This document shows, piece by piece, positions 21,912 to 62,578 of a stretch of DNA of 64,000 bases. The position numbers and the translations under genes were made by a program. Position 1 is the first letter of the stretch, and each line of letters opens with the position of its first letter. The stretch is taken from positions 248,001 to 312,000 of the forward strand of contig WKFK01000015.1 in assembly GCA_014872815.1 (NCBI GenBank), read 5' to 3'. This DNA is from Paracoccaceae bacterium (GTDB lineage Bacteria > Pseudomonadota > Alphaproteobacteria > Rhodobacterales > Rhodobacteraceae). The notes under the pieces were generated by a model. The model searched no databases and had not been told where the DNA came from. It saw only the letters and a list, made by a program, of their open reading frames with translations.

Positions 21912-22646
21912 TTATCCCAGTTTGGCCCAAAGCGCGTTCTCACCCATCTTTTCTACAAACTCTTGGTGCGCTGACGCTTCCTCTTCAGTCAGTCGCGAGG
22001 GCAGGGGTGTTGCCCGTTTGGTCGGCCGCCAATCATCCACCTGCACCGATTTGCTCTTTCCACCGCCGCCGGACGCCAAAACCAAATCCGGCTGTCGGCC
22101 GCCAATCAGCTCCAGATAGACTTCCGCGAGGATTTCAGAGTCTAGCAATGCGCCGTGCAACGTCCGCGAAGAGTTGTCGATACCAAAACGGCGGCACAAA
22201 GCATCCAATGTGGCGGGCGAACCAGGGAACTTGTTGCGCGCCATGGCCAGAGTATCCACCGCCCGGTCCATTGGGATCTCCGGCAGGTTCATCCAGCTCA
22301 GCTCCGCATTCAGGAACTTCATGTCGAATTTGGCGTTGTGAATGACCAGTTTGCTGTCGTTGCCGATGAAATCCAGAAACGCTTGCCCGTGCGCCTCAAA
22401 GACTTTCTTGTCTTTCAGCGTGACCTCACCCGGCTGCGCATCTCGTGGCACATCGAGCAAATCCGGCCCAATCCCGTGCACGCCAAAGGCCTCTTCCGGC
22501 ATGTTCCGCATCGGGTTGATATAGACGTGAAACGTCTCGCCAGTAGGCAGGTGGTTGTACAATTCCAACGCCCCGATCTCGACAATCCGGTCGCCGGAGA
22601 ACGGATCAAACCCAGTGGTTTCCGTATCGAGTACGATTTCACGCAT
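21912..22646 (-). CDS. dnaQ: DNA polymerase III epsilon subunit (3'-5' proofreading exonuclease)
   Basis: A 244-aa DEDDh exonuclease. Exo I is VLDTETTGFDP, Exo II is HNAKFDMKFLN, and Exo III is HGALLDSEILAEVY with the catalytic His. QPDLVL just after the exonuclease fold is a likely sliding-clamp-binding motif. The C-terminal tail (KSKSVQVDDWRP...) would contact the polymerase alpha subunit. Last gene of the leftward maf-aroE-coaE-dnaQ operon, overlapping coaE by 8 bases. This order beside the origin is conserved in alphaproteobacteria. Confidence 0.96.
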   Translation of the reverse strand: MREIVLDTETTGFDPFSGDRIVEIGALELYNHLPTGETFHVYINPMRNMPEEAFGVHGIGPDLLDVPRDAQPGEVTLKDKKVFEAHGQAFLDFIGNDSKLVIHNAKFDMKFLNAELSWMNLPEIPMDRAVDTLAMARNKFPGSPATLDALCRRFGIDNSSRTLHGALLDSEILAEVYLELIGGRQPDLVLASGGGGKSKSVQVDDWRPTKRATPLPSRLTEEEASAHQEFVEKMGENALWAKLG

Positions 22647-23232
22647 TGGCCAACTGTCCCCTGATGGTGGTCACAATCTTCTCCACCTGCTGGCGCGCAT
22701 GGTCAAGCGTGTCCGTGGTCACAATGTAGTCCGCGCGCGCAACTTTCTCATCATTTGGCATCTGTTTGGCGCGGATCTGTTCAAACTGAGCCTCGCTCAT
22801 CGTGCCTCGTGCCAAAACCCGGTCTCGCTGTACTTCAGCTGGAATAGAGACACATACCACCGCATCCATCGCTGTGTTCCCACCGGTTTCAAACAGTAAC
22901 GGAATGTCAAAAACCAGAATGTCCGCCGTGGCAGATCCGATGAAGGCGGCACGGTCCTGCGCCACCAACGGATGCACGATTTCTTCAATCATTTTGAGCG
23001 CCGAGGGATCGCGCCCGATCACCTCTTTGAGCTTGTCACGCGACACTGCACCGGCAACCACGGCCTTCGGAAACTTGGCCTGCATCGGCGCAACCGCCGC
23101 ACCGCCGACATCATAAAGCCGATGCACCGCTGCATCCGCATCCCAAAGCGCACAGCCCAGATCGACAAACATCTGTGCCGTGGTCGATTTGCCCATGCCA
23201 ATCGAGCCAGTCAGACCAAGCTTAAAGCTCAT
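22639..23232 (-). CDS. coaE: Dephospho-CoA kinase
   Basis: A 197-aa P-loop kinase for the last step of coenzyme A synthesis, phosphorylating the ribose 3' hydroxyl. Walker A is GLTGSIGMGKST near residues 6-17. DADAAVHRLYD and VFDIPLLFETGG are the substrate and Walker-B-like motifs. Its start overlaps the aroE stop by 4 bases and its end overlaps dnaQ by 8, so the operon is translationally coupled. Confidence 0.96.
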   Translation of the reverse strand: MSFKLGLTGSIGMGKSTTAQMFVDLGCALWDADAAVHRLYDVGGAAVAPMQAKFPKAVVAGAVSRDKLKEVIGRDPSALKMIEEIVHPLVAQDRAAFIGSATADILVFDIPLLFETGGNTAMDAVVCVSIPAEVQRDRVLARGTMSEAQFEQIRAKQMPNDEKVARADYIVTTDTLDHARQQVEKIVTTIRGQLANA

Positions 23233-24062
23233 CCCAAAACCACGCGCCGTGTTTCATCATCCACCACAGGACGACGACCAAACCAGCGTTCAAACCCTGG
23301 CACGGCTTGATGCAACAACATACCAAGCCCATCCACAGTCACACAGCCAATCTCATTGGCTGTGCGCAGGAAGTTTGTAGTCAACGGCGAATAAACGAGA
23401 TCCGTCACCACCGTTTCTTTACGCAGCCCATCCATCGGCACACGCAGCTCTGATTTGCCAGTCATGCCAAGCGACGTGGTGTTCACCAATGTGGCGCCTT
23501 CTTCCAAAATATTGCCCGCCTGGACCCACTCAACCACCTTAACCCGTGCTCCAAAGTCTTCGCGCAGCTTATCTGCCCGCACACGTGTGCGGTTGGTCAG
23601 CAAAATCTCCGGCGCACCCGCATCAAGCAAAGACGCTACAACCGCCCGCGCGGCACCACCCGCGCCCAACACAACAGCTGGACCTGCAGACGCATCCCAC
23701 TCCGGCGCCCCCTGGCGCAGGTTTTCGATGAACCCATAGCCATCGGTGTTGTCGCCCAGAATGCTGCCATCGTTGAGAAAGATCAGCGTGTTTACCGCCC
23801 CAATCAGCGTTGCCCGATCCGTGATCTGATCGACAAACTGCATCACCCGCTCTTTGTGCGGGATCGTCACGTTGCAACCGACAAACCCCATCTTTGGCAT
23901 CGCTCTCAAAACATCACCCAAAGCATCCGCCTCAACCTCAAGCGGCACATAATGCCCGGCAATGTCATAGGTCTTCAGCCAATGCCCATGCAGGACTGGT
24001 GATTTTGAGTGCGCAATCGGGTTCCCGATCACACCCGCCAAAGGAATGGACGGCAATGTCAT
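23229..24062 (-). CDS. aroE: Shikimate dehydrogenase
   Basis: A 277-aa NADPH-dependent enzyme that reduces 3-dehydroshikimate in aromatic amino-acid synthesis. Substrate binding HSKSP, catalytic Lys in GCNVTIPHKE, GAVNTL, NTDGYGF, and the cofactor loop LGAGGAARAV are all present. Length is standard. Overlaps maf and coaE by 4 bases each. Confidence 0.96.
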   Translation of the reverse strand: MTLPSIPLAGVIGNPIAHSKSPVLHGHWLKTYDIAGHYVPLEVEADALGDVLRAMPKMGFVGCNVTIPHKERVMQFVDQITDRATLIGAVNTLIFLNDGSILGDNTDGYGFIENLRQGAPEWDASAGPAVVLGAGGAARAVVASLLDAGAPEILLTNRTRVRADKLREDFGARVKVVEWVQAGNILEEGATLVNTTSLGMTGKSELRVPMDGLRKETVVTDLVYSPLTTNFLRTANEIGCVTVDGLGMLLHQAVPGFERWFGRRPVVDDETRRVVLG

Positions 24063-24658
24063 TGTGGCAGTTCTCCCCGTGTCGTCAAAAACGACAGAAT
24101 TTCTACAAGCGGCATGCCAAGGACGGTGAAATAGTCCCCGTCGATCTTATCAAACAACCGCACGCCTTCTTCTTCTAACTTATACCCGCCAACCGAATGA
24201 CGGATGCTGTCAAAGTTGCGATCCAGATAGCCCTCAAGAAAGTCGTTGCTGAATTGCCGCATGAAAAGCCGCACAACACCCACGTGACGCCACAGCGGTT
24301 CGCCATTCTGATAGATCACAGCTGCGGAAAGCAGCATGTGGCGCTGACCACGCAACAACAGCAGTTGATTGCGCGCATCCTCCACGCTGTCGGGCTTAGA
24401 AAAAATCGTGCCTTGAAAATCCAGCACCTGATCACAGCCCAAAACCAGCGCCTCTGGCCGTTTTAAACTCACCTTGCGCGCTTTTGACTCCGCCAAGGCG
24501 TCTGCGACATCCCGTGGTGTGGCGCCCTCCGCCTGCAAAGATCGCTTGATCATCTCTTCATCTACGCGCGGCTTAACGGTTTCGTAACCAACATTGGCTT
24601 TAGATAGGAGCTGAGCCCGTATGTCGGAGCCCGAAGCAAGGATCAGGGGTGCGGTCAT
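24059..24658 (-). CDS. maf: Maf-family nucleotide pyrophosphatase
   Basis: A 199-aa Maf/YceF-type nucleoside triphosphate pyrophosphatase, which removes modified or non-canonical nucleotides. Motifs: LASGSDIRAQLLSKA (N-terminal phosphate loop), VDEEMIKRSL, GCDQVLDFQG, and the C-terminal FDKIDGDYFTVLGMPL. The more basic loop of the canonical LAS.SPRR motif is replaced here by GSDIRAQ, as in YceF relatives. Start 24658 is chosen because the protein aligns from MTAPLILASGS. The start codon abuts a perfect DnaA box. Confidence 0.93.
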   Translation of the reverse strand: MTAPLILASGSDIRAQLLSKANVGYETVKPRVDEEMIKRSLQAEGATPRDVADALAESKARKVSLKRPEALVLGCDQVLDFQGTIFSKPDSVEDARNQLLLLRGQRHMLLSAAVIYQNGEPLWRHVGVVRLFMRQFSNDFLEGYLDRNFDSIRHSVGGYKLEEEGVRLFDKIDGDYFTVLGMPLVEILSFLTTRGELPQ

Positions 24659-24666
24659 GTGGATAA
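24658..24666 (-). other. DnaA box, perfect match
   Basis: TGTGGATAA on the plus strand, i.e. TTATCCACA on the minus strand. It begins on the maf start codon, so DnaA bound here would also cover the maf translation start region. Confidence 0.8.
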
Positions 24667-24840
24667 ATCCGTGGAGAAGGGAAGGAACTTCTTGAGAGTC
24701 CTTTCTGGAAATTTCTGAGGGGTTTTGCAAGCTGGGGAAACTCCCGGCCGTCTCACGGAAATCCCCCGATTTTCTGCACGGTGGACGGGGAAAACTTTCC
24801 CTGTGGGAGGAATCACCTGGATACCCGTTTCTCCACGCGC

Positions 24841-24849
24841 TTATCCACA
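24841..24849 (+). other. DnaA box, perfect match
   Basis: TTATCCACA on the plus strand in the middle of the intergenic region. A weaker relative, TTCTCCACG, lies just upstream at 24829-24837. Confidence 0.8.
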
Positions 24850-24947
24850 GTCATGCTTCTGTCATGAATTATTCAAACCACTGAAATCATTAAAATCTTT
24901 TAACTTTCTCACCAGCCTGTGAGACTCTTTGGTGCTCTCTATCCATA

Positions 24948-24956
24948 TGTGGGTAA
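24948..24956 (-). other. DnaA box, one mismatch
   Basis: TGTGGGTAA on the plus strand, i.e. TTACCCACA on the minus strand, one base from consensus. Confidence 0.65.
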
Positions 24957-24973
24957 GTGCAGGGGAAAAGTGA

Positions 24974-24982
24974 TAATCCACA
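24974..24982 (+). other. DnaA box, one mismatch
   Basis: TAATCCACA on the plus strand, one base from consensus and 17 bases before the AT-rich run. Confidence 0.65.
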
Positions 24983-24998
24983 GGATTGGACGTCCCTA

Positions 24999-25041
24999 CT
25001 TAATCATCATCCTTTTCTATATATATTTATTTATTTAAGGA
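24999..25041. other. Candidate DNA unwinding element of oriC
   Basis: About 43 bases of very AT-rich sequence with TATATATATTTATTTATTTAA, abutting the DnaA box cluster and ending in an AAGGAGG just before hemJ. The surrounding genome is GC rich, so the contrast is strong. Confidence 0.7.
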
Positions 25042-25072
25042 GGCTCGGACAGGGACAAGGATCTCACCGACC

Positions 25073-25522
25073 ATGGGTTACTTTCTGATCGATATTTATC
25101 CTTACGTGCTTTCACTGCACATCATGGCAGTGATCAGCTGGATGGCAGGTCTGTTCTATCTCCCACGTTTGTTCGTGTATCACGCTGAGCGGGCAGAGAA
25201 GGGGGATCAACTCGATGAAACCCTGAAGATCATGGAATACAAGCTTCAGCGCTACATCATGGCCCCTGCAAGTATTGTGGCTTGGGCCGCGGGCCTCACG
25301 CTTGTCTTCACACCAGGTATTGTCGATTGGTCTGCGATCTGGCCTTACACCAAAGCCTTTGGGGTAATTTCAATGACGGTGTTTGATCATTGGCTGATGA
25401 TCATGCGAAAGAAGTTTGGCCGTGATGAAAATACGCTCACCGGCCGCCAATATCGTATGATGAACGAAGTTCCGACGCTTTTGATGGTTCTGATTGTTCT
25501 ATCAGTGGTCGTAAAATTCTGA
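25073..25522 (+). CDS. hemJ: Protoporphyrinogen IX oxidase HemJ
   Basis: A 149-aa four-helix inner-membrane protein of the HemJ (UPF0093) family, which oxidises protoporphyrinogen IX in bacteria lacking HemG and HemY. The heme-binding His are likely His16 (YVLSLHIMAVISWMAG) and His37 (FVYHAE), followed by KLQRYIMAPA and FDHWLMIM. Start is ATG 25073. It is the first gene to the right of the candidate origin and is followed by rho. Confidence 0.93.
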   Translation: MGYFLIDIYPYVLSLHIMAVISWMAGLFYLPRLFVYHAERAEKGDQLDETLKIMEYKLQRYIMAPASIVAWAAGLTLVFTPGIVDWSAIWPYTKAFGVISMTVFDHWLMIMRKKFGRDENTLTGRQYRMMNEVPTLLMVLIVLSVVVKF

Positions 25523-25630: not shown

Positions 25631-25644
25631 CACAGGATATTTTC

Positions 25645-26916
25645 ATGACACAAGAAAAGCTTGCTCTTGGCGATCTGAAAGCCAAAAGCCCGAAAGATCT
25701 CTTGGCAATGGCCGAAGAGCTGGAGATCGAAAACGCCTCCACCATGCGCAAAGGCGAGATGATGTTCCAGATTCTGCGGGAACGCGCAGATGATGGATGG
25801 GAAATCTCCGGCGATGGTGTGCTTGAGGTGCTTCAGGATGGCTTCGGCTTCCTGCGCTCGCCAGAGGCCAACTACCTTCCGGGTCCCGATGACATCTACG
25901 TCTCCCCAGAGATGATCCGTAAGTACTCCCTGCGCACCGGTGACACCGTGAACGGCGTCATGACGGCTCCAGGGGACAATGAGCGCTACTTTGCCCTCAC
26001 AGGCGTGTCTCAAATCAACTTTGAAGCGCCGGAGAAGGCCAAGCACAAAATCGCCTTCGACAACCTCACGCCGCTCTATCCGGATGAGCGCCTGAAGATG
26101 GAGATCGAAGATCCCACCATCAAAGACCGTTCCGCCCGTGTGATCGACCTTGTCGCGCCGATTGGTAAGGGGCAGCGTTCCCTGATCGTGGCGCCACCAC
26201 GCACCGGTAAAACCGTTCTGCTGCAAAACATCGCGCATAGCATCGAGGCCAACCATCCTGAGTGTTACTTGATCGTCCTGCTGATCGACGAACGCCCGGA
26301 AGAGGTGACCGACATGCAGCGGTCCGTGAAGGGCGAGGTGATCTCCTCCACCTTTGACGAACCGGCCACACGCCACGTTGCCGTGTCCGAAATGGTCATC
26401 GAAAAAGCCAAACGTCTTGTGGAACATAAACGAGATGTTGTGATCCTTCTGGATTCGATCACAAGACTTGGCCGTGCCTTCAACACTGTGGTGCCATCCT
26501 CCGGTAAAGTTTTGACCGGTGGTGTGGACGCCAACGCGTTGCAACGTCCAAAGCGTTTCTTTGGTGCGGCCCGTAACATCGAAGAGGGTGGCTCGCTCAC
26601 CATCATCTCCACCGCGCTGATCGACACCGGTTCGCGCATGGACGAGGTGATCTTCGAAGAATTTAAAGGCACCGGTAACTCGGAGATCGTGCTGGATCGC
26701 AAAGTTGCGGACAAACGTGTCTTCCCAGCGATCGACATTCTCAAATCGGGCACCCGGAAAGAGGATCTCTTGGTCGACAAAGGCGATCTTGCGAAAACCT
26801 TTGTGCTACGCCGCATCCTCAACCCGATGGGCACCACCGACGCCGTGGAATTCCTGCTTGGCAAACTCAAGCAAACCAAAACCAATGGCGAGTTCTTTGA
26901 CTCGATGAACACCTAA
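25645..26916 (+). CDS. rho: Transcription termination factor Rho
   Basis: A 423-aa hexameric RNA helicase that terminates transcription. The N-terminal RNA-binding domain contains DGFGFLRS and [14 protein letters not shown] (primary site). Walker A APPRTGKT is near residue 183-190, [15 protein letters not shown] covers Walker B, and the Q/R loops follow in [22 protein letters not shown]. Start ATG 25645 ([12 protein letters not shown]) has AGGA upstream; an upstream in-frame start at 25585 adds non-homologous residues. Start choice puts two hairpins in the leader. Confidence 0.96.
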
Positions 26917-26926
26917 GGATGCTGTG

Positions 26927-28225
26927 ATGGCCTATGTGGCTGACACAATTTTCGCTCTTGCAACGGCCCCCGGTAAAGCGGGGGTCGCTGTCGTTCGTGT
27001 GTCCGGTTCGCGCGTTGCCGAGGTGGGTAGGGCGCTCTTTGGCGATCTGCCAAACCCGCGTTTTGCGGCGCTGAAACTGCTGAAAGATCGCCAAGGCCGC
27101 CGTCTGGATCAGGCCTTGGTGCTTTACTTTGAGAAAGGCAGCAGCTTTACCGGCGAAGACGTGTTGGAGCTGCATTTGCATGGCTCCACGGCTGTTGTGA
27201 ATGCTGTCCTGCGCGAACTCTCCGAAATGGACGGTCTGCGTTTGGCTGAAGCAGGTGAATTTACCCGTCGGGCTTTGGAAAACGGTTGTCTAGATTTGGC
27301 GCAGGTCGAAGGGCTTGCCGATTTGATCGATGCGGAAACCGAAGCCCAACGACGCCAAGCGCTGCGCGTTCTGTCTGGAGATCTTGGCAACTTGGCCGGA
27401 AAATGGCGCACGGATCTGATCCGCGCGGCTGCCTTGATCGAAGCCACGATCGACTTTGCTGACGAAGATGTGCCGGTAGATGTGACGCCAGAAGTCACGG
27501 AACTTCTGTCCGGCGTTCGTACGGAACTCGATAAAGAGATCGCGGGTGTCGATACTGCAGAACGCATCCGCACTGGCTTTGAAGTTGCCATTCTCGGGGC
27601 CCCTAATGTTGGTAAATCCACTTTGCTGAACGCGCTTGCAGGACGCGAAGCTGCGATAACCTCTGAATTTGCAGGCACTACCCGCGACGTTATCGAAGTG
27701 CGCATGGAGCTGAACGGGCTACCCGTCACGCTTTTGGACACCGCAGGCCTGCGCGAAACTGACGATCATGTTGAGGGCATCGGCATCCGACGGGCCCGCG
27801 AACGTGCCGAGGCTGCCGATCTGCGTGTTTTCTTGAAATCTGATGGCGAGGATCCTGATTTCACTCCTTTGCCAAATGATGTGATCCGCGCGGCGAAAGC
27901 CGACACTTTAGATGATCCGCAAAATGCCATCTCTGGAAAAACCGGGTTTGGTGTGTCGGAACTTGTGGCCGAAATAACTGACAAGTTGTCTGAGCAGGCT
28001 GGGCGTTCAGGCGTCGCCACCCGCGAACGGCATCGCATCGCGATGAAACGCGCATCTGAATCTCTGGATGCGGCGCGCGCCGTTCTCGCTCTGGGGTCAG
28101 ATCACTATGATATTGGGGCCGAAGAGTTGCGTACCGCGATTCGAGCCCTTGATTCCATCGTCGGCCATGTCGATGTAGAGAACCTGCTGGATGAGATCTT
28201 TTCGAGCTTTTGCATCGGAAAGTGA
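26927..28225 (+). CDS. mnmE: tRNA modification GTPase MnmE (TrmE)
   Basis: A 432-aa GTPase that works with MnmG to place the (carboxymethyl)aminomethyl group on U34 of certain tRNAs. The N-terminal folate-binding domain starts at [22 protein letters not shown]. The G domain has G1 GAPNVGKST near 224-232, G2 FAGTTRD and G3 DTAGLRET. The protein ends with the invariant FCIGK. ATG 26927 with AAGGA upstream is preferred to the GTG one codon earlier. 23 bases before the mnmG start. Confidence 0.96.
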
Positions 28226-28240
28226 TTCAAATTTGAGGAG

Positions 28241-28256
28241 TGTTTCACGTGAAACA
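28241..28256. other. parS site 1, perfect palindrome
   Basis: TGTTTCACGTGAAACA, a perfect 16-bp palindrome that matches the bacterial ParB-binding consensus. It overlaps the mnmG start codon (GTG 28249) and immediately follows the GAGGAG ribosome site. parAB lie 2.5-4.2 kb downstream. ParB loading here would also cover the mnmG translation start in DNA. Confidence 0.92.
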
Positions 28257-30111
28257 TTTTGACGTCATTGTTGTTGGAGGCGGCCACGCTGGCGCAGATG
28301 CCGCGGCAGCGTCCGCGCGTATGGGTGCCCTGACCGCGCTTGTGACCCTTAAAAAATCCGGCATTGGCGTTATGTCCTGCAATCCTGCGATTGGCGGGCT
28401 TGGTAAGGGCCACCTTGTGCGGGAAGTGGATGCCCTCGATGGGGTCATGGGGCGTATTGCGGACAAGGCAGGGATTCAATTCCGCTTGCTTAACCGCCGT
28501 AAAGGTCCAGCAGTCCAAGGACCGCGTGCGCAATCAGACCGAAAAATCTATCGCACCGAAATGCTGGCGGAGATTGAGGCAACCCCAAACCTGACCGTGA
28601 TCGAGGGGGAAGCCATCGATTTTCGCATGGAAGGGCAGGCCGTGCGGGGAGTCATCCTTGCAGATGGTTCAGAGATTGCATCGCATACGGTTGTTCTCAC
28701 AACAGGCACGTTCCTACGCGGTGTCATCCACATCGGCGACGTTTCTCACTCTGGCGGGCGCATGGGCGACAACGCCTCGGTCAAACTTGCCGAACGCATT
28801 GACAGTTTTGCGCTGCCTTTAGGGCGCCTAAAGACTGGCACTCCGCCACGGCTTAATGGCAAGACTATCAAATGGGATCAGCTCGACAGCCAGCCTGCTG
28901 ATGAAGAACCGGTGATGTTCTCTTTCATGAACAAGAAGCCATCTGCGCGTCAGATTGCCTGTGGCATCACCCACACCAACGCAAAAACCCACGACATCAT
29001 TCGCGACAACTTGGATCGCTCCGCGATGTATGGTGGTCACATCGAAGGGGTAGGGCCGCGCTATTGTCCGTCTATTGAAGACAAGATTGTGCGTTTCGCT
29101 GATAAAGACTCCCATCAGGTCTTTCTGGAGCCGGAAGGATTGGACGATGACACCGTCTATCCAAATGGTATTTCCACCTCTTTGCCCGTCGATGTCCAAG
29201 AATCCTATGTGCGCTCGATCTATGGCCTTGAGGATGTGGAGATTCTGCAACCTGGCTATGCCATTGAATATGATTACGTCGATCCGCGGGCGCTAGACGC
29301 CGCTTTGGGCGTGAAGGGCGTGCCAGGTTTGTATCTAGCGGGCCAAATTAATGGTACCACAGGATATGAAGAGGCTGCTGCTCAAGGCCTGGTTGCTGGT
29401 CTAAACGCGGCTCTTTCCGCGCAAGGAAAGGCGCCTCATCATTTCAGCCGGTCTGACAGTTACATCGGTGTGATGGTAGACGATCTCATCACCCGCGGTG
29501 TGACGGAACCCTACCGCATGTTCACGTCGCGAGCAGAGTTCCGGCTGTCCTTGCGTGCGGATAACGCCGATCAGCGCCTGACACCTATTGGTCAAGAGTT
29601 GGGTTTGGTCGGTGACGCGCGTAAGGCTGCTTTTGGCAAGAAGGCAGAGAAGTTGGCGGCAGGCAAAGCACTTCTGGAAGAGAGAGGCTATACGCCAAAA
29701 GAAATCAACGCTGCGGGGATCGCTGTAAACCAGGACGGAAATCGCCGCACAGCGTTTCAGGTCTTGGCTTTTCCGGAAGTTGGTTTCGGCGAATTGACTG
29801 CGTTAGATGAGCGCTTTGGGGAAATTGAGCCCGAGATCCAGGATCAGCTGGACCGTGATGCGCTTTATGCCAATTACATTGAGCGTCAAAAGAGGGATGT
29901 GGAGGCAATGCGTCGCGACGAAACACAGATTATCCCGTCTGACTTTGATTTCGACGTTATCGAAGGTCTCAGCAATGAGTTGAAAGCGAAGTTAAATGCT
30001 GTGCGCCCTTCTAATTTGGGGCAGGCCGGACGTATCGATGGAATGACTCCGGCTGCCCTGACGCTGCTTCTCGCAAAACTGCGTCAGGCCAAGAAGGCGA
30101 AATCTGCCTAA
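28249..30111 (+). CDS. mnmG: tRNA uridine-5-carboxymethylaminomethyl enzyme MnmG (GidA)
   Basis: A 620-aa FAD protein, partner of MnmE in U34 modification. FAD loop [14 protein letters not shown] is at the N-terminus; [33 protein letters not shown] and the C-terminal [16 protein letters not shown] are conserved. Start is GTG 28249 (MKHFDVIVV), 8 bases after GAGGAG; the GTG at 28240 touches that ribosome site and is unlikely. The start lies within parS site 1. Its stop overlaps the rsmG start by one base (TAATG). Confidence 0.96.
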
Positions 30112-30749
30112 TGTCTTGTCCTGACCACATCCAAGCCAAGTTGAATGTTTCACGTGAAACATTGACGCACCTCGAAACGCTCGCGGACCTACTGGTAAAG
30201 TGGAATCCAAGGATTAACCTGGTTTCTAAGTCCACAATCGACGATCTTTGGACGCGCCACATTCTGGATTCCGTGCAAGTCCTACGCAGTGCGCCTGCAA
30301 ATGCCGCTCATTGGGTGGACATTGGCAGCGGGGGAGGTTTCCCCGGTCTCGTCATTGCGTTGATGTCCGCCGAACCTGAAGCGCCACAAAAGGTAACGTT
30401 GATTGAAAGTGATCAACGCAAATGCGCCTTTTTGCGTACGGTTCTGCGCGAAACCAACGTTCCAGGCACAGTGATCACAGACCGCATTGAAAAAGCGGAA
30501 CCCCAAAATGCAGATGTTCTGTCTGCGCGTGCGCTTGCGGATATGTCTTTGCTTTGTGAGTTTGCAGAGCGCCATTTGTTGGCAACAGGCACCGCAGTGT
30601 TCCCAAAAGGCGCACGTTGGCAAAAAGAGCTGAAATCCGCACAGGAATCGTGGTCATTTGATTGCGAAGTGGTAAAAAGTATCACAGACCCAGAAGCGGT
30701 CATTCTGAAGATTGGAGAGCTCAAACGTGTCGGATCCCACACGCCCTAA
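30111..30749 (+). CDS. rsmG: 16S rRNA (guanine527-N7)-methyltransferase RsmG (GidB)
   Basis: A 212-aa SAM-dependent methyltransferase that makes m7G527 in 16S rRNA; loss gives low-level streptomycin resistance. Motifs: [25 protein letters not shown], the SAM loop [15 protein letters not shown], and [20 protein letters not shown]. The second parS site lies in its codons 13-17 (NVSRET), so this palindrome is embedded in coding sequence. Overlaps mnmG by one base and runs into parA (start 30727). Confidence 0.96.
30146..30161. other. parS site 2, perfect palindrome
   Basis: TGTTTCACGTGAAACA, identical to site 1 and extended to an 18-bp palindrome (ATGTTTCACGTGAAACAT, 30145-30162). It lies within the rsmG coding sequence, 1,905 bases from site 1 and about 0.6 kb before parA. 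Confidence 0.92.
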
Positions 30750-31536
30750 AGGGCCCAAAATCATCGCAGTGGCCAACCAAAAGGGTGGCGTGGGCAAAAC
30801 AACAACCGCAATCAATCTCGCCGCAGCACTGGTCGAAGAAGGCTGTAAGGTTCTTTTGGTCGATCTGGACCCGCAAGGGAACGCGTCCACTGGTTTGGGA
30901 GTGGAAGTCGAAGCCCGCACACACACCACCTATGACCTTTTGACGGGGGATGTGGAGCTGGAAGACGTGATCCAAACCACGGAGTCCGGCGATTTGTCGA
31001 TTGTACCGGCTACTGTAGACCTCAGCTCAGCTGATATTGAGTTGATGTCGAATGAAAAGCGCAGTTTCCTCTTGCATGACGCACTGCGCCAGACAGCGAT
31101 GGACAAATACGATTTGGATTACATCCTGATCGATTGCCCGCCCTCCTTGAACCTTCTGACGGTCAACGCCATGATCGCGGCCAATTCCGTTTTGATCCCG
31201 CTGCAAAGCGAGTTTTTTGCGTTGGAAGGCCTGTCACAGCTTATGCTGACAGTGCGGGAGGTCCGTCAAACTGCCAACGCAGGGCTGCGGATTGAAGGTA
31301 TTGTGTTAACCATGTTTGACGCGCGCAACAATTTGTCCCAACAGGTTGAACAAGACGCGCGGGACAATCTTGGTGATCTGGTGTTTGAGACCAAAATTCC
31401 GCGCAACGTGCGCGTATCTGAGGCGCCCTCTTTTGCGCAACCCGTCCTGGATTATGATCCTACGTCCAAGGGTGCCGAGGCTTACCGGGCTTTGGCCAAA
31501 GAATTGCTTGTCAAAAACTATCAAGTGGCTGCGTAA
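30727..31536 (+). CDS. parA: Chromosome partitioning ATPase ParA
   Basis: A 269-aa deviant Walker-A ATPase that moves ParB-parS complexes along the nucleoid. The motif KGGVGKTT is at 19-26, [11 protein letters not shown] follows, and [19 protein letters not shown] is Walker B. Start is GTG 30727 (MSDPTRPKG) with GGAGAG 7 bases upstream; a TTG at 30712 adds five residues. It overlaps the rsmG 3' end by 23 bases. parB follows after 12 bases. Confidence 0.96.
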
Positions 31537-31548
31537 GGGAGAGCCAAA

Positions 31549-32442
31549 ATGGCAGATAAGAAAAAACAACGTGGCCTTGGTCGCGGCCTGAGCGCCTTGA
31601 TGGCGGATGTAACTGAAGAAACAACACGTCAAGAATCCGGGTCTGCGCCCCGTCGCGCGGATCTTGTGGTGCCAATCGAACGGATTGAACCCAACCCAGA
31701 TCAGCCGCGTCGGGACTTTACACCGGAGCAATTGGAGGATCTGTCAAATTCCATTCGCGAAAAAGGCGTGATCCAACCCCTCATCGTGCGCAAAAAATCT
31801 GGCGATCGCTATGAGATCGTCGCGGGGGAACGCCGGTGGCGTGCATCCCAAATGGCGCAGCTGCATGAGCTGCCCATCATTGTGCGTGATTACGATGACA
31901 CCGAAGTGCTCGAAATCGCGATCATCGAAAACATCCAGCGGGCTGATCTGAACCCAGTTGAAGAGGCCATGGGCTATCGTCAGCTGATGCAGAAATTTGG
32001 CCACACGCAGGAGAAGGTTTCCGAAGCCCTTGGCAAAAGCCGGAGCCACATCGCTAACTTGATGCGTTTGCTCAATCTGCCTGATGACGTGCAGGTTATG
32101 TTGCGCGAAGGCCACCTATCGGCAGGTCATGCGCGTGCGTTGGTGACATCGGACAACGCGTCCGAGTTGGCCCGAAAGGTCGTAAAGGACGGTCTGTCCG
32201 TGCGTCAGACCGAAAAACTGGCGAAAAAAACAGGCTCTCTCGTCGAGCAAAATAAAAAATCTCGACCAAAGACCCATAAGGACGCCGACACAGTCGCTCT
32301 AGAGGGCGATCTTTCGGCAAATTTGGGCATGAAAGTTGCGGTGGATCACGTTTCCGGCGGAGAAAATGGAAAAATTACCATTACTTATCAAACACTTGAT
32401 CAACTTGATGAATTGTGCCGAATTCTGAGCGCTACGAATTAG
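31549..32442 (+). CDS. parB: Chromosome partitioning CTPase ParB
   Basis: A 297-aa parS-binding protein that spreads as a CTP-dependent clamp. It starts with the ParA-stimulating tail KKKQRGLGRGLSALMAD. The CTP motifs PDQPRR and GERRWRAS (93-100) follow, then a helix-turn-helix region HTQEKVSEALGKSRSHIANLMRLL, and a C-terminal dimerisation part. Start has AAGGGAGAG upstream. The 3' end overlaps the convergent DUF454 gene by 11 bases. Confidence 0.96.
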   Translation: MADKKKQRGLGRGLSALMADVTEETTRQESGSAPRRADLVVPIERIEPNPDQPRRDFTPEQLEDLSNSIREKGVIQPLIVRKKSGDRYEIVAGERRWRASQMAQLHELPIIVRDYDDTEVLEIAIIENIQRADLNPVEEAMGYRQLMQKFGHTQEKVSEALGKSRSHIANLMRLLNLPDDVQVMLREGHLSAGHARALVTSDNASELARKVVKDGLSVRQTEKLAKKTGSLVEQNKKSRPKTHKDADTVALEGDLSANLGMKVAVDHVSGGENGKITITYQTLDQLDELCRILSATN

Positions 32443-45982: not shown

Positions 45983-45985
45983 AAT

Positions 45986-46006
45986 AGGTGGGGAAGATCC
46001 CCACCT
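45986..46006. terminator. Bidirectional terminator between two convergent genes
   Basis: AGGTGGGGA (45986-45994) pairs perfectly with TCCCCACCT (45998-46006) around 3 bases. It lies just after the sulfotransferase-like gene; the minus strand has a TATTTTA tail, fitting the convergent SCP2 gene better. Confidence 0.75.
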
Positions 46007-46013
46007 TGTCTTC

Positions 46014-46295
46014 CTAAGCCAGCAATTGACCCAATTTCATGGCCGTGCCCATGTCGCCAGACACTTTTAACTTGCCCAGCATCAAGGCTGTTGTTGGTTT
46101 CAAATCACCGGCCAGAAGCTTCACAAGATTGTCTTCAGAGATGGTCACTGTGCAGTCTGTGTCCCGATCGTCCTGGGTGGCAGTCCCATCCGCCAAGACG
46201 ACAACACCGGCATCGCCGCAGTCAAATTTCAATGAACCGTCAAACGTCCGGTCTTTCAGCCCTTCAGCCATTTGTGCCGTGATCTGTTCCAACAT
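46014..46295 (-). CDS. SCP2 sterol-binding domain protein
   Basis: A 93-aa stand-alone SCP2 domain. FDCGDAGVVVLADGTATQ, CTVTISEDNLVKLLAGDLKPTTALMLGKLKVSGDMGTAMKLGQLL matches the lipid-binding beta-sheet and helices of the family. Such proteins bind hydrophobic ligands such as acyl-CoA or lipids; the ligand here is unknown. No signal peptide, so cytoplasmic. Confidence 0.9.
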   Translation of the reverse strand: MLEQITAQMAEGLKDRTFDGSLKFDCGDAGVVVLADGTATQDDRDTDCTVTISEDNLVKLLAGDLKPTTALMLGKLKVSGDMGTAMKLGQLLA

Positions 46296-46358
46296 GTGAT
46301 TTTTCCTAAGTAACCTTGTTGTTCAAGTGGTTGCAGCCAACCAGCTTCGGCGCAAGGG

Positions 46359-60736: not shown

Positions 60737-62578
60737 ATGTTCAAGTTCTTCGAGACCCTTGTTGACCCTTATTGCGACTACGACGAAGTAGATACGCCTC
60801 CCACCAAGCTGTGGCCCTTCATGCGCGACTACGCGCAGCCGTTCCGCAAAGTCTTTGTTTTTGCTACAATAATGTCGATCATCGTGGCTGCGGTAGAGAT
60901 CGGTCTGATCGCCTATATGGGCCGGATTGTAGACCTGCTGAGTGGTGATCCGACCCAGGTCTGGGCCAACCACGGCACCGAGTTCATCCTGGTTATCCTC
61001 TTCGTGCTTGTCTTGCGTCCCGCGCTTCAGGCCTTTGACGTGCTGTTGCTCAACAACACGGTGCTGCCAAACTTCGGCACCCTGATCCGCTGGCGCGCCC
61101 ATAAACATGTTTTGCGTCAATCGGTTGGCTGGTTTGAGAACGACTTCGCGGGCCGCATTGCCAACCGGATCATGCAGACGCCCCCGGCGGCTGGCGAAGC
61201 TGTGTTTCAGGTGTTTGACGCCATCACATTCTCCATCGCCTATGTGGTTGGTGCGGCGATCCTTTTAGCCGATGCCGACCCGCGTTTGGTGCTGCCGATG
61301 CTGGGCTGGTTGGTGCTCTATGGTTTCTTGGTAAAATGGACCGTGAAGCGGGTTGGTCCCGCCTCACAAAAAGCTTCTGACGCTCGGTCCAAAGTCACAG
61401 GCCGTGTGGTGGATTCCTATACAAACATCCACTCCGTGAAACTCTTTGCGCACAACAAGCGCGAGCTGGATTATGCCAAAGAAGCCATTGAATACTCACG
61501 CGAAACCTTCCAGGCGGAGATGCGCATCTTCACTCTGATGGATGTGATGTTGGTCATGTTGAATGGCTTGCTGATTGTGAGCGTGGTGGGCTGGGCCATC
61601 TGGCTCTGGATGCAGGGCTTGGCCAGCGTCGGCGTGGTCGCCGCCGCCACCGCTTTGAGCCTGCGTCTGAACGCGATGACCGGTTGGATCATGTGGGCGT
61701 TGACGTCTTTCTTCCGTCAGCTAGGTGTCGTGGCCGAAGGCATGGAAACCATCGCCCAAGCGATTGATTTGGTTGATGATCCAAGCGCCCAACCGCTTGA
61801 TTTTGCCGACGGTAAGATCGAGCTGCAGCAGCTCACACACCACTACGGGCGTGACAGCGGTGGGTTGGACAACATCTCGCTCACCATTGCGCCAGGTGAA
61901 AAGGTGGGTCTGATAGGTCGCTCCGGTGCAGGTAAGTCCACTTTGGTGAAGCTGCTTTTGCGGTTCTATGACGCTGAAAAGGGACAAATTCTGATTGATG
62001 GTCAGGATATTGCCTCGGTCACGCAGAATAGCCTGCGCGACAAAATCGGTATGGTGCAACAGGACAGTTCGCTGCTGCATCGGTCTGTTCGCGATAACTT
62101 GCTATACGGTCGTCCAGACGCCTCAGAAGTGGAGATGATCGCGGCGGCACAGAAAGCAGAAGCGCATGACTTCATTCTGGACCTTGAGGATCCGCAAGGG
62201 CGCACCGGCTATGATGCACATGTTGGCGAGCGCGGCGTAAAATTGTCGGGTGGTCAGCGGCAGCGCATCACTCTGGCGCGTGTGATCCTGAAAGATGCGC
62301 CGATTCTGTTGCTGGATGAGGCCACCAGTGCCTTGGACAGCGAGGTTGAGGCTGCGATTCAACGTACGCTTTACGGCATGATGGCAGGTAAAACCGTGAT
62401 CGCCATTGCGCACCGCCTGTCCACGATTGCGGAAATGGACCGCATTCTGGTGCTGGATCAGGGCCGTATCGTGGAGCAGGGTAGCCATGCCGAACTGCTT
62501 GCGCGGAATGGTCTTTACGCTGGCTTCTGGGCGCGTCAGTCCGGCGGCTTCCTGAACGCGGATGAAGCTGCGGAGTAA
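60737..62578 (+). CDS. ABC transporter, fused permease and ATPase (exporter)
   Basis: A 613-aa half-transporter of the multidrug/lipid exporter type. Six membrane segments span about residues 35-330. The ATPase has Walker A GLIGRSGAGKST, Q-loop MVQQDSSLL, signature LSGGQRQRITLARVILKDAP, Walker B ILLLDEATSAL and the H-loop AIAHRLSTIAEMD. It should act as a homodimer or pair with another half-transporter elsewhere. ATG 60737 with AGGA 7 bases upstream is chosen over 60686. Substrate unknown. Confidence 0.92.
   Translation: MFKFFETLVDPYCDYDEVDTPPTKLWPFMRDYAQPFRKVFVFATIMSIIVAAVEIGLIAYMGRIVDLLSGDPTQVWANHGTEFILVILFVLVLRPALQAFDVLLLNNTVLPNFGTLIRWRAHKHVLRQSVGWFENDFAGRIANRIMQTPPAAGEAVFQVFDAITFSIAYVVGAAILLADADPRLVLPMLGWLVLYGFLVKWTVKRVGPASQKASDARSKVTGRVVDSYTNIHSVKLFAHNKRELDYAKEAIEYSRETFQAEMRIFTLMDVMLVMLNGLLIVSVVGWAIWLWMQGLASVGVVAAATALSLRLNAMTGWIMWALTSFFRQLGVVAEGMETIAQAIDLVDDPSAQPLDFADGKIELQQLTHHYGRDSGGLDNISLTIAPGEKVGLIGRSGAGKSTLVKLLLRFYDAEKGQILIDGQDIASVTQNSLRDKIGMVQQDSSLLHRSVRDNLLYGRPDASEVEMIAAAQKAEAHDFILDLEDPQGRTGYDAHVGERGVKLSGGQRQRITLARVILKDAPILLLDEATSALDSEVEAAIQRTLYGMMAGKTVIAIAHRLSTIAEMDRILVLDQGRIVEQGSHAELLARNGLYAGFWARQSGGFLNADEAAE

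Follow-up and report, generated by a model that had tools for sequence, protein, structure and literature searches.

A probable chromosomal replication origin between maf and hemJ in a genome related to Shimia

The intergenic gap between maf and hemJ described here is, we conclude with high confidence, the DnaA-dependent oriC of the main chromosome of its source, a marine bacterium of the Shimia group. The window, by which we mean the whole stretch of 64,000 nucleotides that was analysed, corresponds to bases 248001-312000 of contig 3 (882 kb) in an assembly of 3.96 Mb and 16 contigs. When HemJ was used as a query, the five closest relatives from named genomes were all from Shimia (85-97% identity), a label also carried by most of the top twenty HemJ relatives, and judged by these proteins the source genome, a member of the Rhodobacteraceae, appears to be nearest to Shimia. 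The conserved maf-gap-hemJ layout, the proximity of parAB and parS, the switch of GC skew at the locus in relatives and the published placement of origins next to maf all fit a chromosomal oriC, and they support the interpretation offered in the original prediction. The analysis places an origin in a Shimia-group genome, and its core signature may be of use for locating the origin in drafts of related Rhodobacteraceae genomes. It also illustrates, in the contig itself, that skew alone can mislocate an origin by tens of kilobases.

Results

The gap is bordered by maf (24059..24658, minus strand, Pfam PF02545) and by a UPF0093 gene (25073..25522, plus strand, Pfam PF03653) which we take to be hemJ, and the two diverge from it as had been predicted. 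Beyond maf, also on the minus strand, are aroE (23229..24062) and coaE (22639..23232), both identified by family search, and a dnaQ-like exonuclease gene (21912..22646), which was named from its translation alone and has an equivalent position in four relatives. On the plus strand hemJ is followed by rho (25636..26916), mnmE (trmE, 26927..28225), mnmG (gidA, 28240..30111), rsmG (gidB, 30111..30749) and parB (31549..32442), again by family search; the gene at 30712..31536 on the same strand belongs to the ParA/MipZ-type ATPase families and is called parA because it stands before parB. Neither tRNAs nor, at gathering scores, Rfam matches were found within the window. The dnaA gene lies on the same contig (G000:C3:42609-43094), approximately 230 kb from the origin and more than 200 kb from each of the four perfect DnaA boxes of contig 3.

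Measured between the ATG codons of maf (24658) and hemJ (25073), the gap is 414 bp long, and taken in this way it is the longest gene-free region, as had been claimed. That claim hinges on the maf start, however, since with the longest possible maf ORF the gap shrinks to 342 bp and is then surpassed, when ORFs of 110 aa and more are counted, by the gap at 45983-46358 (376 bp).

All four of the predicted DnaA boxes, two perfect and two with one mismatch, were located in the gap by sequence match. Perfect copies of TTATCCACA are found at 24658-24666 (minus strand, with one base common to the maf start codon) and at 24841-24849 (plus strand), and one-mismatch boxes at 24948-24956 (TTACCCACA, minus strand) and 24974-24982 (TAATCCACA, plus strand), the latter being the core box, closest to the candidate unwinding region. 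Counting a perfect box as 2 and a one-mismatch box as 1, summed within 330 bp, the cluster scores 6, compared with a highest score of 3 when the window was simulated 300 times by a first-order Markov model. Allowing no more than one mismatch to the DnaA box, 19 sites are found in the window as a whole, a number attained by none of 100 shuffles (mean 8.09), so that the cluster exceeds chance by both shuffling and simulation. Over the whole assembly there are 29 perfect boxes versus 8 for the reversed control, and 573 boxes with at most one mismatch versus 444 for the control.

Directly adjoining the boxes is an AT-rich run (24998..25040), the candidate duplex unwinding element by virtue of its composition; at 24998 begins the 40-bp stretch with the highest AT content in the window (85%). 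A second AT-rich run (24864..24910) varies in sequence among relatives, and the 40-bp stretch from 24864 is next in rank at 80%, tied with two other places. The prediction of a strongly AT-rich run is therefore borne out over 40 bp, but over 100-200 bp the gap is equalled or exceeded at 51.6, 55.7 and 1.6 kb. Between the core box and the AT run lie a spacer and the CTACTTAATCATCATCCTTTT element (24983..25018, plus strand), a candidate entry of the DnaA filament to single-stranded DNA, so that the core at 24974-25040 reads in order: DnaA box, 13-nt spacer, CTAC..CATCATCC, AT run. This core pattern has a single match in the 3.96-Mb assembly and none in the control.

For comparison across relatives we took the best 80 of the 320 hemJ loci found, 79 of which show a divergent maf and a gap of 359-452 bp; the remaining one (L061), whose stretch held no maf, was left out, and the alignment therefore consists of 79 relatives and the window, 80 rows in all. 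At the place aligned with 24658, 29 of the 80 rows have a perfect box and 74 a box with no more than one mismatch, while the corresponding counts at 24841 are 15 and 51. At 24948, 30 rows have at most one mismatch and 68 at most two. The core place at 24974 reads T[ATG]ATCCAC in 67 rows and is within one mismatch of the box in 41, and a perfect TTATCCACA occurs there in none. Within the Shimia set (the window and L029-L049, 22 rows, three of them labelled Rhodobacteraceae only) boxes with at most one mismatch are found at the four places in 22, 20, 16 and 16 rows, respectively; outside Shimia, conservation of the last two, at 24948 and 24974, is weak.

The core as a whole can be followed across the relatives as T(A/T/G)ATCCAC, a spacer, CCTAC, about five bases, CATCATCCTTT and an AT run, CTAC being present in 64 of the 80 aligned rows and CATCATC in 61. 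Measured on the 58 relatives outside the Shimia set, the most conserved 20-bp bin of the gap is 24999-25018 (identity 0.71 to the window), followed by a bin adjoining maf (0.67), against a gap mean of 0.43, and by this comparison the core sequence appears to be unusually well conserved. The core box stands 4 nt ahead of CTAC in two loci (L074 and L088) and is doubled in tandem in two others (L056 and L101); a box that can be moved or repeated in this way would fit an entry site for a filament directed at the melting region. A strict core pattern tried across the class was found in three of five genomes of the family, two of them by pattern alone, and is absent from G006, of the same genus. Class-wide it occurs in 29 of 385 genomes versus 20 for the reversed control (manual count), which puts the pattern at about chance outside the Rhodobacteraceae.

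Two perfect 16-bp copies of TGTTTCACGTGAAACA, presumably parS sites, are located in the first codons of mnmG (28241..28256) and of rsmG (30146..30161). The 12-bp core of the ParB site, TTTCACGTGAAA, has just two copies in the assembly, at 28.2 and 30.1 kb, both of them 3-5 kb from the maf-hemJ gap and near parAB. The pair is spaced by 1905 bp in all 25 Shimia-group genomes. By manual count, one or two extra copies occur in six of these genomes. Going by coordinates, the pair adjoins a maf-hemJ or a maf-rho gap in 24 of the 25, the contig of the last one (G013) being cut off. Proximity of parAB and parS to the putative origin is usual, if not universal, at bacterial oriC, and an extract of a survey of 179 alphaproteobacterial genomes places parAB near ori in almost all of them (PMC8116508).

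The divergence of maf and hemJ, together with a box that touches the maf start, would also suit a gap that is merely a two-way promoter, through which DnaA would couple the two genes to the cell cycle, with replication initiated at another site; conserved DnaA boxes stand ahead of a gene on contig 14 as well. Genomes without a close hemJ allow this to be weighed. There are three among the 25 of the Shimia group (G003, G013 and G017), of which G013 is uninformative on the gap as its contig starts inside mnmE. In G003 and G017 rho directly follows maf, and the core and AT run are retained beside rho, which argues that the core is more than a hemJ promoter; a reading as hemJ promoter only was dropped on these grounds. 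Also standing against the promoter explanation are the position of the parS pair in the genomes just described and the skew minimum of Shimia biformata at the locus (below), and we consider it very unlikely. Elsewhere in these two genomes (L283, G003:C10; L284, G017:C23) only a distant hemJ match was seen in each, at 26% identity.

The GC skew was expected to turn at 24.8-25.0 kb. In the contig itself the slope of the skew does break at approximately 25 kb, but over the 204 kb from 168 to 372 kb the cumulative minimum falls at window position 61,106, 36 kb off, and this displaced minimum is the chief result against a simple origin reading. Farther left on the contig the skew is positive at 0-10, 120-130 and 160-170 kb and negative at 80-90 kb, and samples at 320-640 kb are positive throughout. 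Relatives were sampled in 20-kb stretches: in Ruegeria pomeroyi SZCCDBG043 and S. biformata the skew, negative before the locus, turns positive there and negative again about half a chromosome away. QY30 follows the same trend weakly, with 80-100 kb on the plus side still negative and stretches far from the locus (1.32 and 2.52 Mb) of the wrong sign. Across a gapless 280-410 kb of S. biformata, cumulative skew reaches its lowest value at 366,420. Given the hemJ start calculated from homologue-search coordinates, this position is 53 bp within the gene. In G021, another Shimia, the minimum over 120-360 kb lies at 267,173, or 28.5 kb toward the hemJ side.

Left-type skew persists for 25-36 kb rightward of the origin (32443-61000 of the window), as it does in G021 and not in S. 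biformata. At 32-50 kb the third-codon-position skew is left-type on both gene strands, and gene direction alone is thus insufficient to account for the offset. The gene order at 41-51 kb varies between species, the genes at 44-46 kb being inverted in S. biformata and, in G021, the genes at 46-49 kb lying near +79 kb. The offset may be the trace of a rearrangement on the hemJ side. Alternatively, the active origin could lie 25-36 kb rightward, at 50-61 kb of the window, and the maf-hemJ cluster could be a former origin, as the displaced minima here and in G021 would allow. The two minima fall at different genes, however, since the genes at 52-63 kb of the window have their G021 counterparts at +82 to +93 kb; moreover, 50-61 kb holds just two one-mismatch boxes, 421 bp apart, and the minimum in S. 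biformata is at hemJ. We therefore regard a rightward origin as highly improbable.

Discussion

The distance of about 230 kb to dnaA counts against an origin in the maf-hemJ gap, as do the displaced skew minimum and the weak conservation of two boxes outside Shimia. The gap is almost certainly an origin, of an ordinary kind and at a site already known for the Rhodobacteraceae. In DoriC an oriC beside maf is conserved in this family, and the oriC of Ketogulonicigenium vulgare Hbe602 next to maf is itself a prediction (PMC4793288; this and the other papers are cited from extracts). The gap in the window is likewise intergenic and directly beside maf, in 79 of 80 loci, which makes its origin a further example of the known type. 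Box positions and a core, not described in the extract of that paper, are mapped here in the window. Another study located the origins of 101 Rhodobacteraceae strains by means of Ori-Finder, skew, the local minimum of GC and proximity to parAB (PMC6699656). In the extract of PMC7901474 an origin position was not found, and a term search of PMC10721633 gave no hit. Our box map and the hemJ-less genomes are absent from the cited literature as extracted, a point on which limited searches bear. A literature search joining oriC, maf and hemJ found no paper.

In Caulobacter, hemE is an origin marker. It serves as one in the Sphingomonadaceae too (PMC4741004), whereas in the window the flanking gene is hemJ. 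The Caulobacter crescentus Cori (Brassinga 2001, cited in PMC4741004) is likewise located at a conserved housekeeping gene cluster, and is described with G- and W-boxes and CtrA sites (PMC4285127, PMC4468827). In both systems the weak boxes are altered at the second base, the Caulobacter G-box being TGATCCACA (PMC4285127) and the window box TAATCCACA; TGATCCACA itself occurs in three of 80 rows. In contrast to Cori, the window has two strong TTATCCACA boxes, and no CtrA site of the form TTAA-N7-TTAA, as in Cori, is present in 24659-25072. One TTAA-N6-TTAA occurs at 24890, in a poorly conserved stretch. In a search for exact matches, WATCAANNNNTTR, which we take to be the IHF consensus of the E. 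coli type, was absent from the gap. GANTC shows no clear enrichment in the gap, with a mean of 2.01 versus 1.53 in shuffles over the 80 rows.

The core also resembles the basal unwinding system (BUS) of Bacillus subtilis, where a spacer of 13 is commonest, the program limit being 16 (PMC8287927), and which is defined by a box, a spacer of at most 16 nt and at least three DnaA-trios. The window resembles it in the succession of box, 13-nt spacer, CTA (3'-GAT-5' on the opposite strand) and AT run. It differs in that the trio run at spacer 13 ends after two, while a run of six trios begins only at spacer 17, one beyond that limit. Across the 80 rows, at least three trios at spacers 0-16 occur in 11, and the longest run at spacers 8-18 averages 2.27 versus 1.94 in shuffles. 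As the trio run breaks in the window and runs hardly exceed those of shuffles, we do not claim membership of the BUS class. Box and trios are presumably oriented relative to each other as in Bacillus. It is possible, though we hold the idea only tentatively and with some doubt, that a rigid melting module, TAATCCAC(A/G)-13 nt-CCTAC-nnAAn-CATCATCC-AT run, is common to the origins of the Rhodobacteraceae. Its register for single-strand DnaA would depart from the DnaA-trio rule of Bacillus and its box could occupy either of two tandem places, making it a variant of the unwinding system specific to the family.

Boxes in both directions with weak ones beside an AT run are the usual layout for melting by DnaA. 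By analogy with other bacteria, from which the roles of DnaA binding, melting point and helicase loading are carried over, the strong boxes at 24658 and 24841 would be loaded first by DnaA, after which the weaker boxes at 24948 and 24974 would join and a DnaA filament would be built. This filament would depart from the 24974 box, extend over the spacer and CTAC..CATCATCC and melt the AT run at 24998-25040, where the helicase would be loaded. Replication would then proceed bidirectionally, to the left through maf-aroE-coaE and to the right through hemJ-rho, and ParA and ParB acting with the two parS sites would separate the new origins. That the cluster instead chiefly titrates DnaA without firing (a site we would presume to call datA-like), as its strong boxes away from the AT run might suggest, is the least probable explanation and extremely unlikely, given that a conserved AT-rich core, parS and, in relatives, a skew switch accompany it.

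No second region had been expected to hold a denser cluster of boxes. When perfect boxes are compared, one on contig 14 is tighter, with three in 96 bp, but it has fewer boxes, and the expectation thus stands in part; five stretches were read, covering ten of the 27 perfect boxes outside the window, and a cluster composed solely of weak boxes may exist elsewhere. On contig 12 (G000:C12:69905-70034) each strand carries one perfect box between uvrC and a short-chain dehydrogenase gene, with 121 bp separating the two, and contig 16 has a close pair of perfect boxes beside ORFs without a clear family. Ten ORFs searched near the boxes of contigs 12, 14 and 16 gave no replication family. The contig 14 cluster (G000:C14:208807-208902; L143:4807-4902) lies between ybjN and a phzF-family gene; its three boxes share one direction and are separated by 68 and 19 bp. 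Among the best 13 of the 30 PhzF loci given, the ten at 65-100% identity all keep the box spacing, with TTTTCCACA as the first box in two, and the three at 42-43% identity have no box within 350 bp. The three-box pattern is present in two of 394 family genomes, including the source genome; in the other (G714) it lies between ybjN and lgt, on a 3.1-kb locus without a phzF match. The contig 14 cluster may serve to titrate DnaA, or it may be a promoter under DnaA control.
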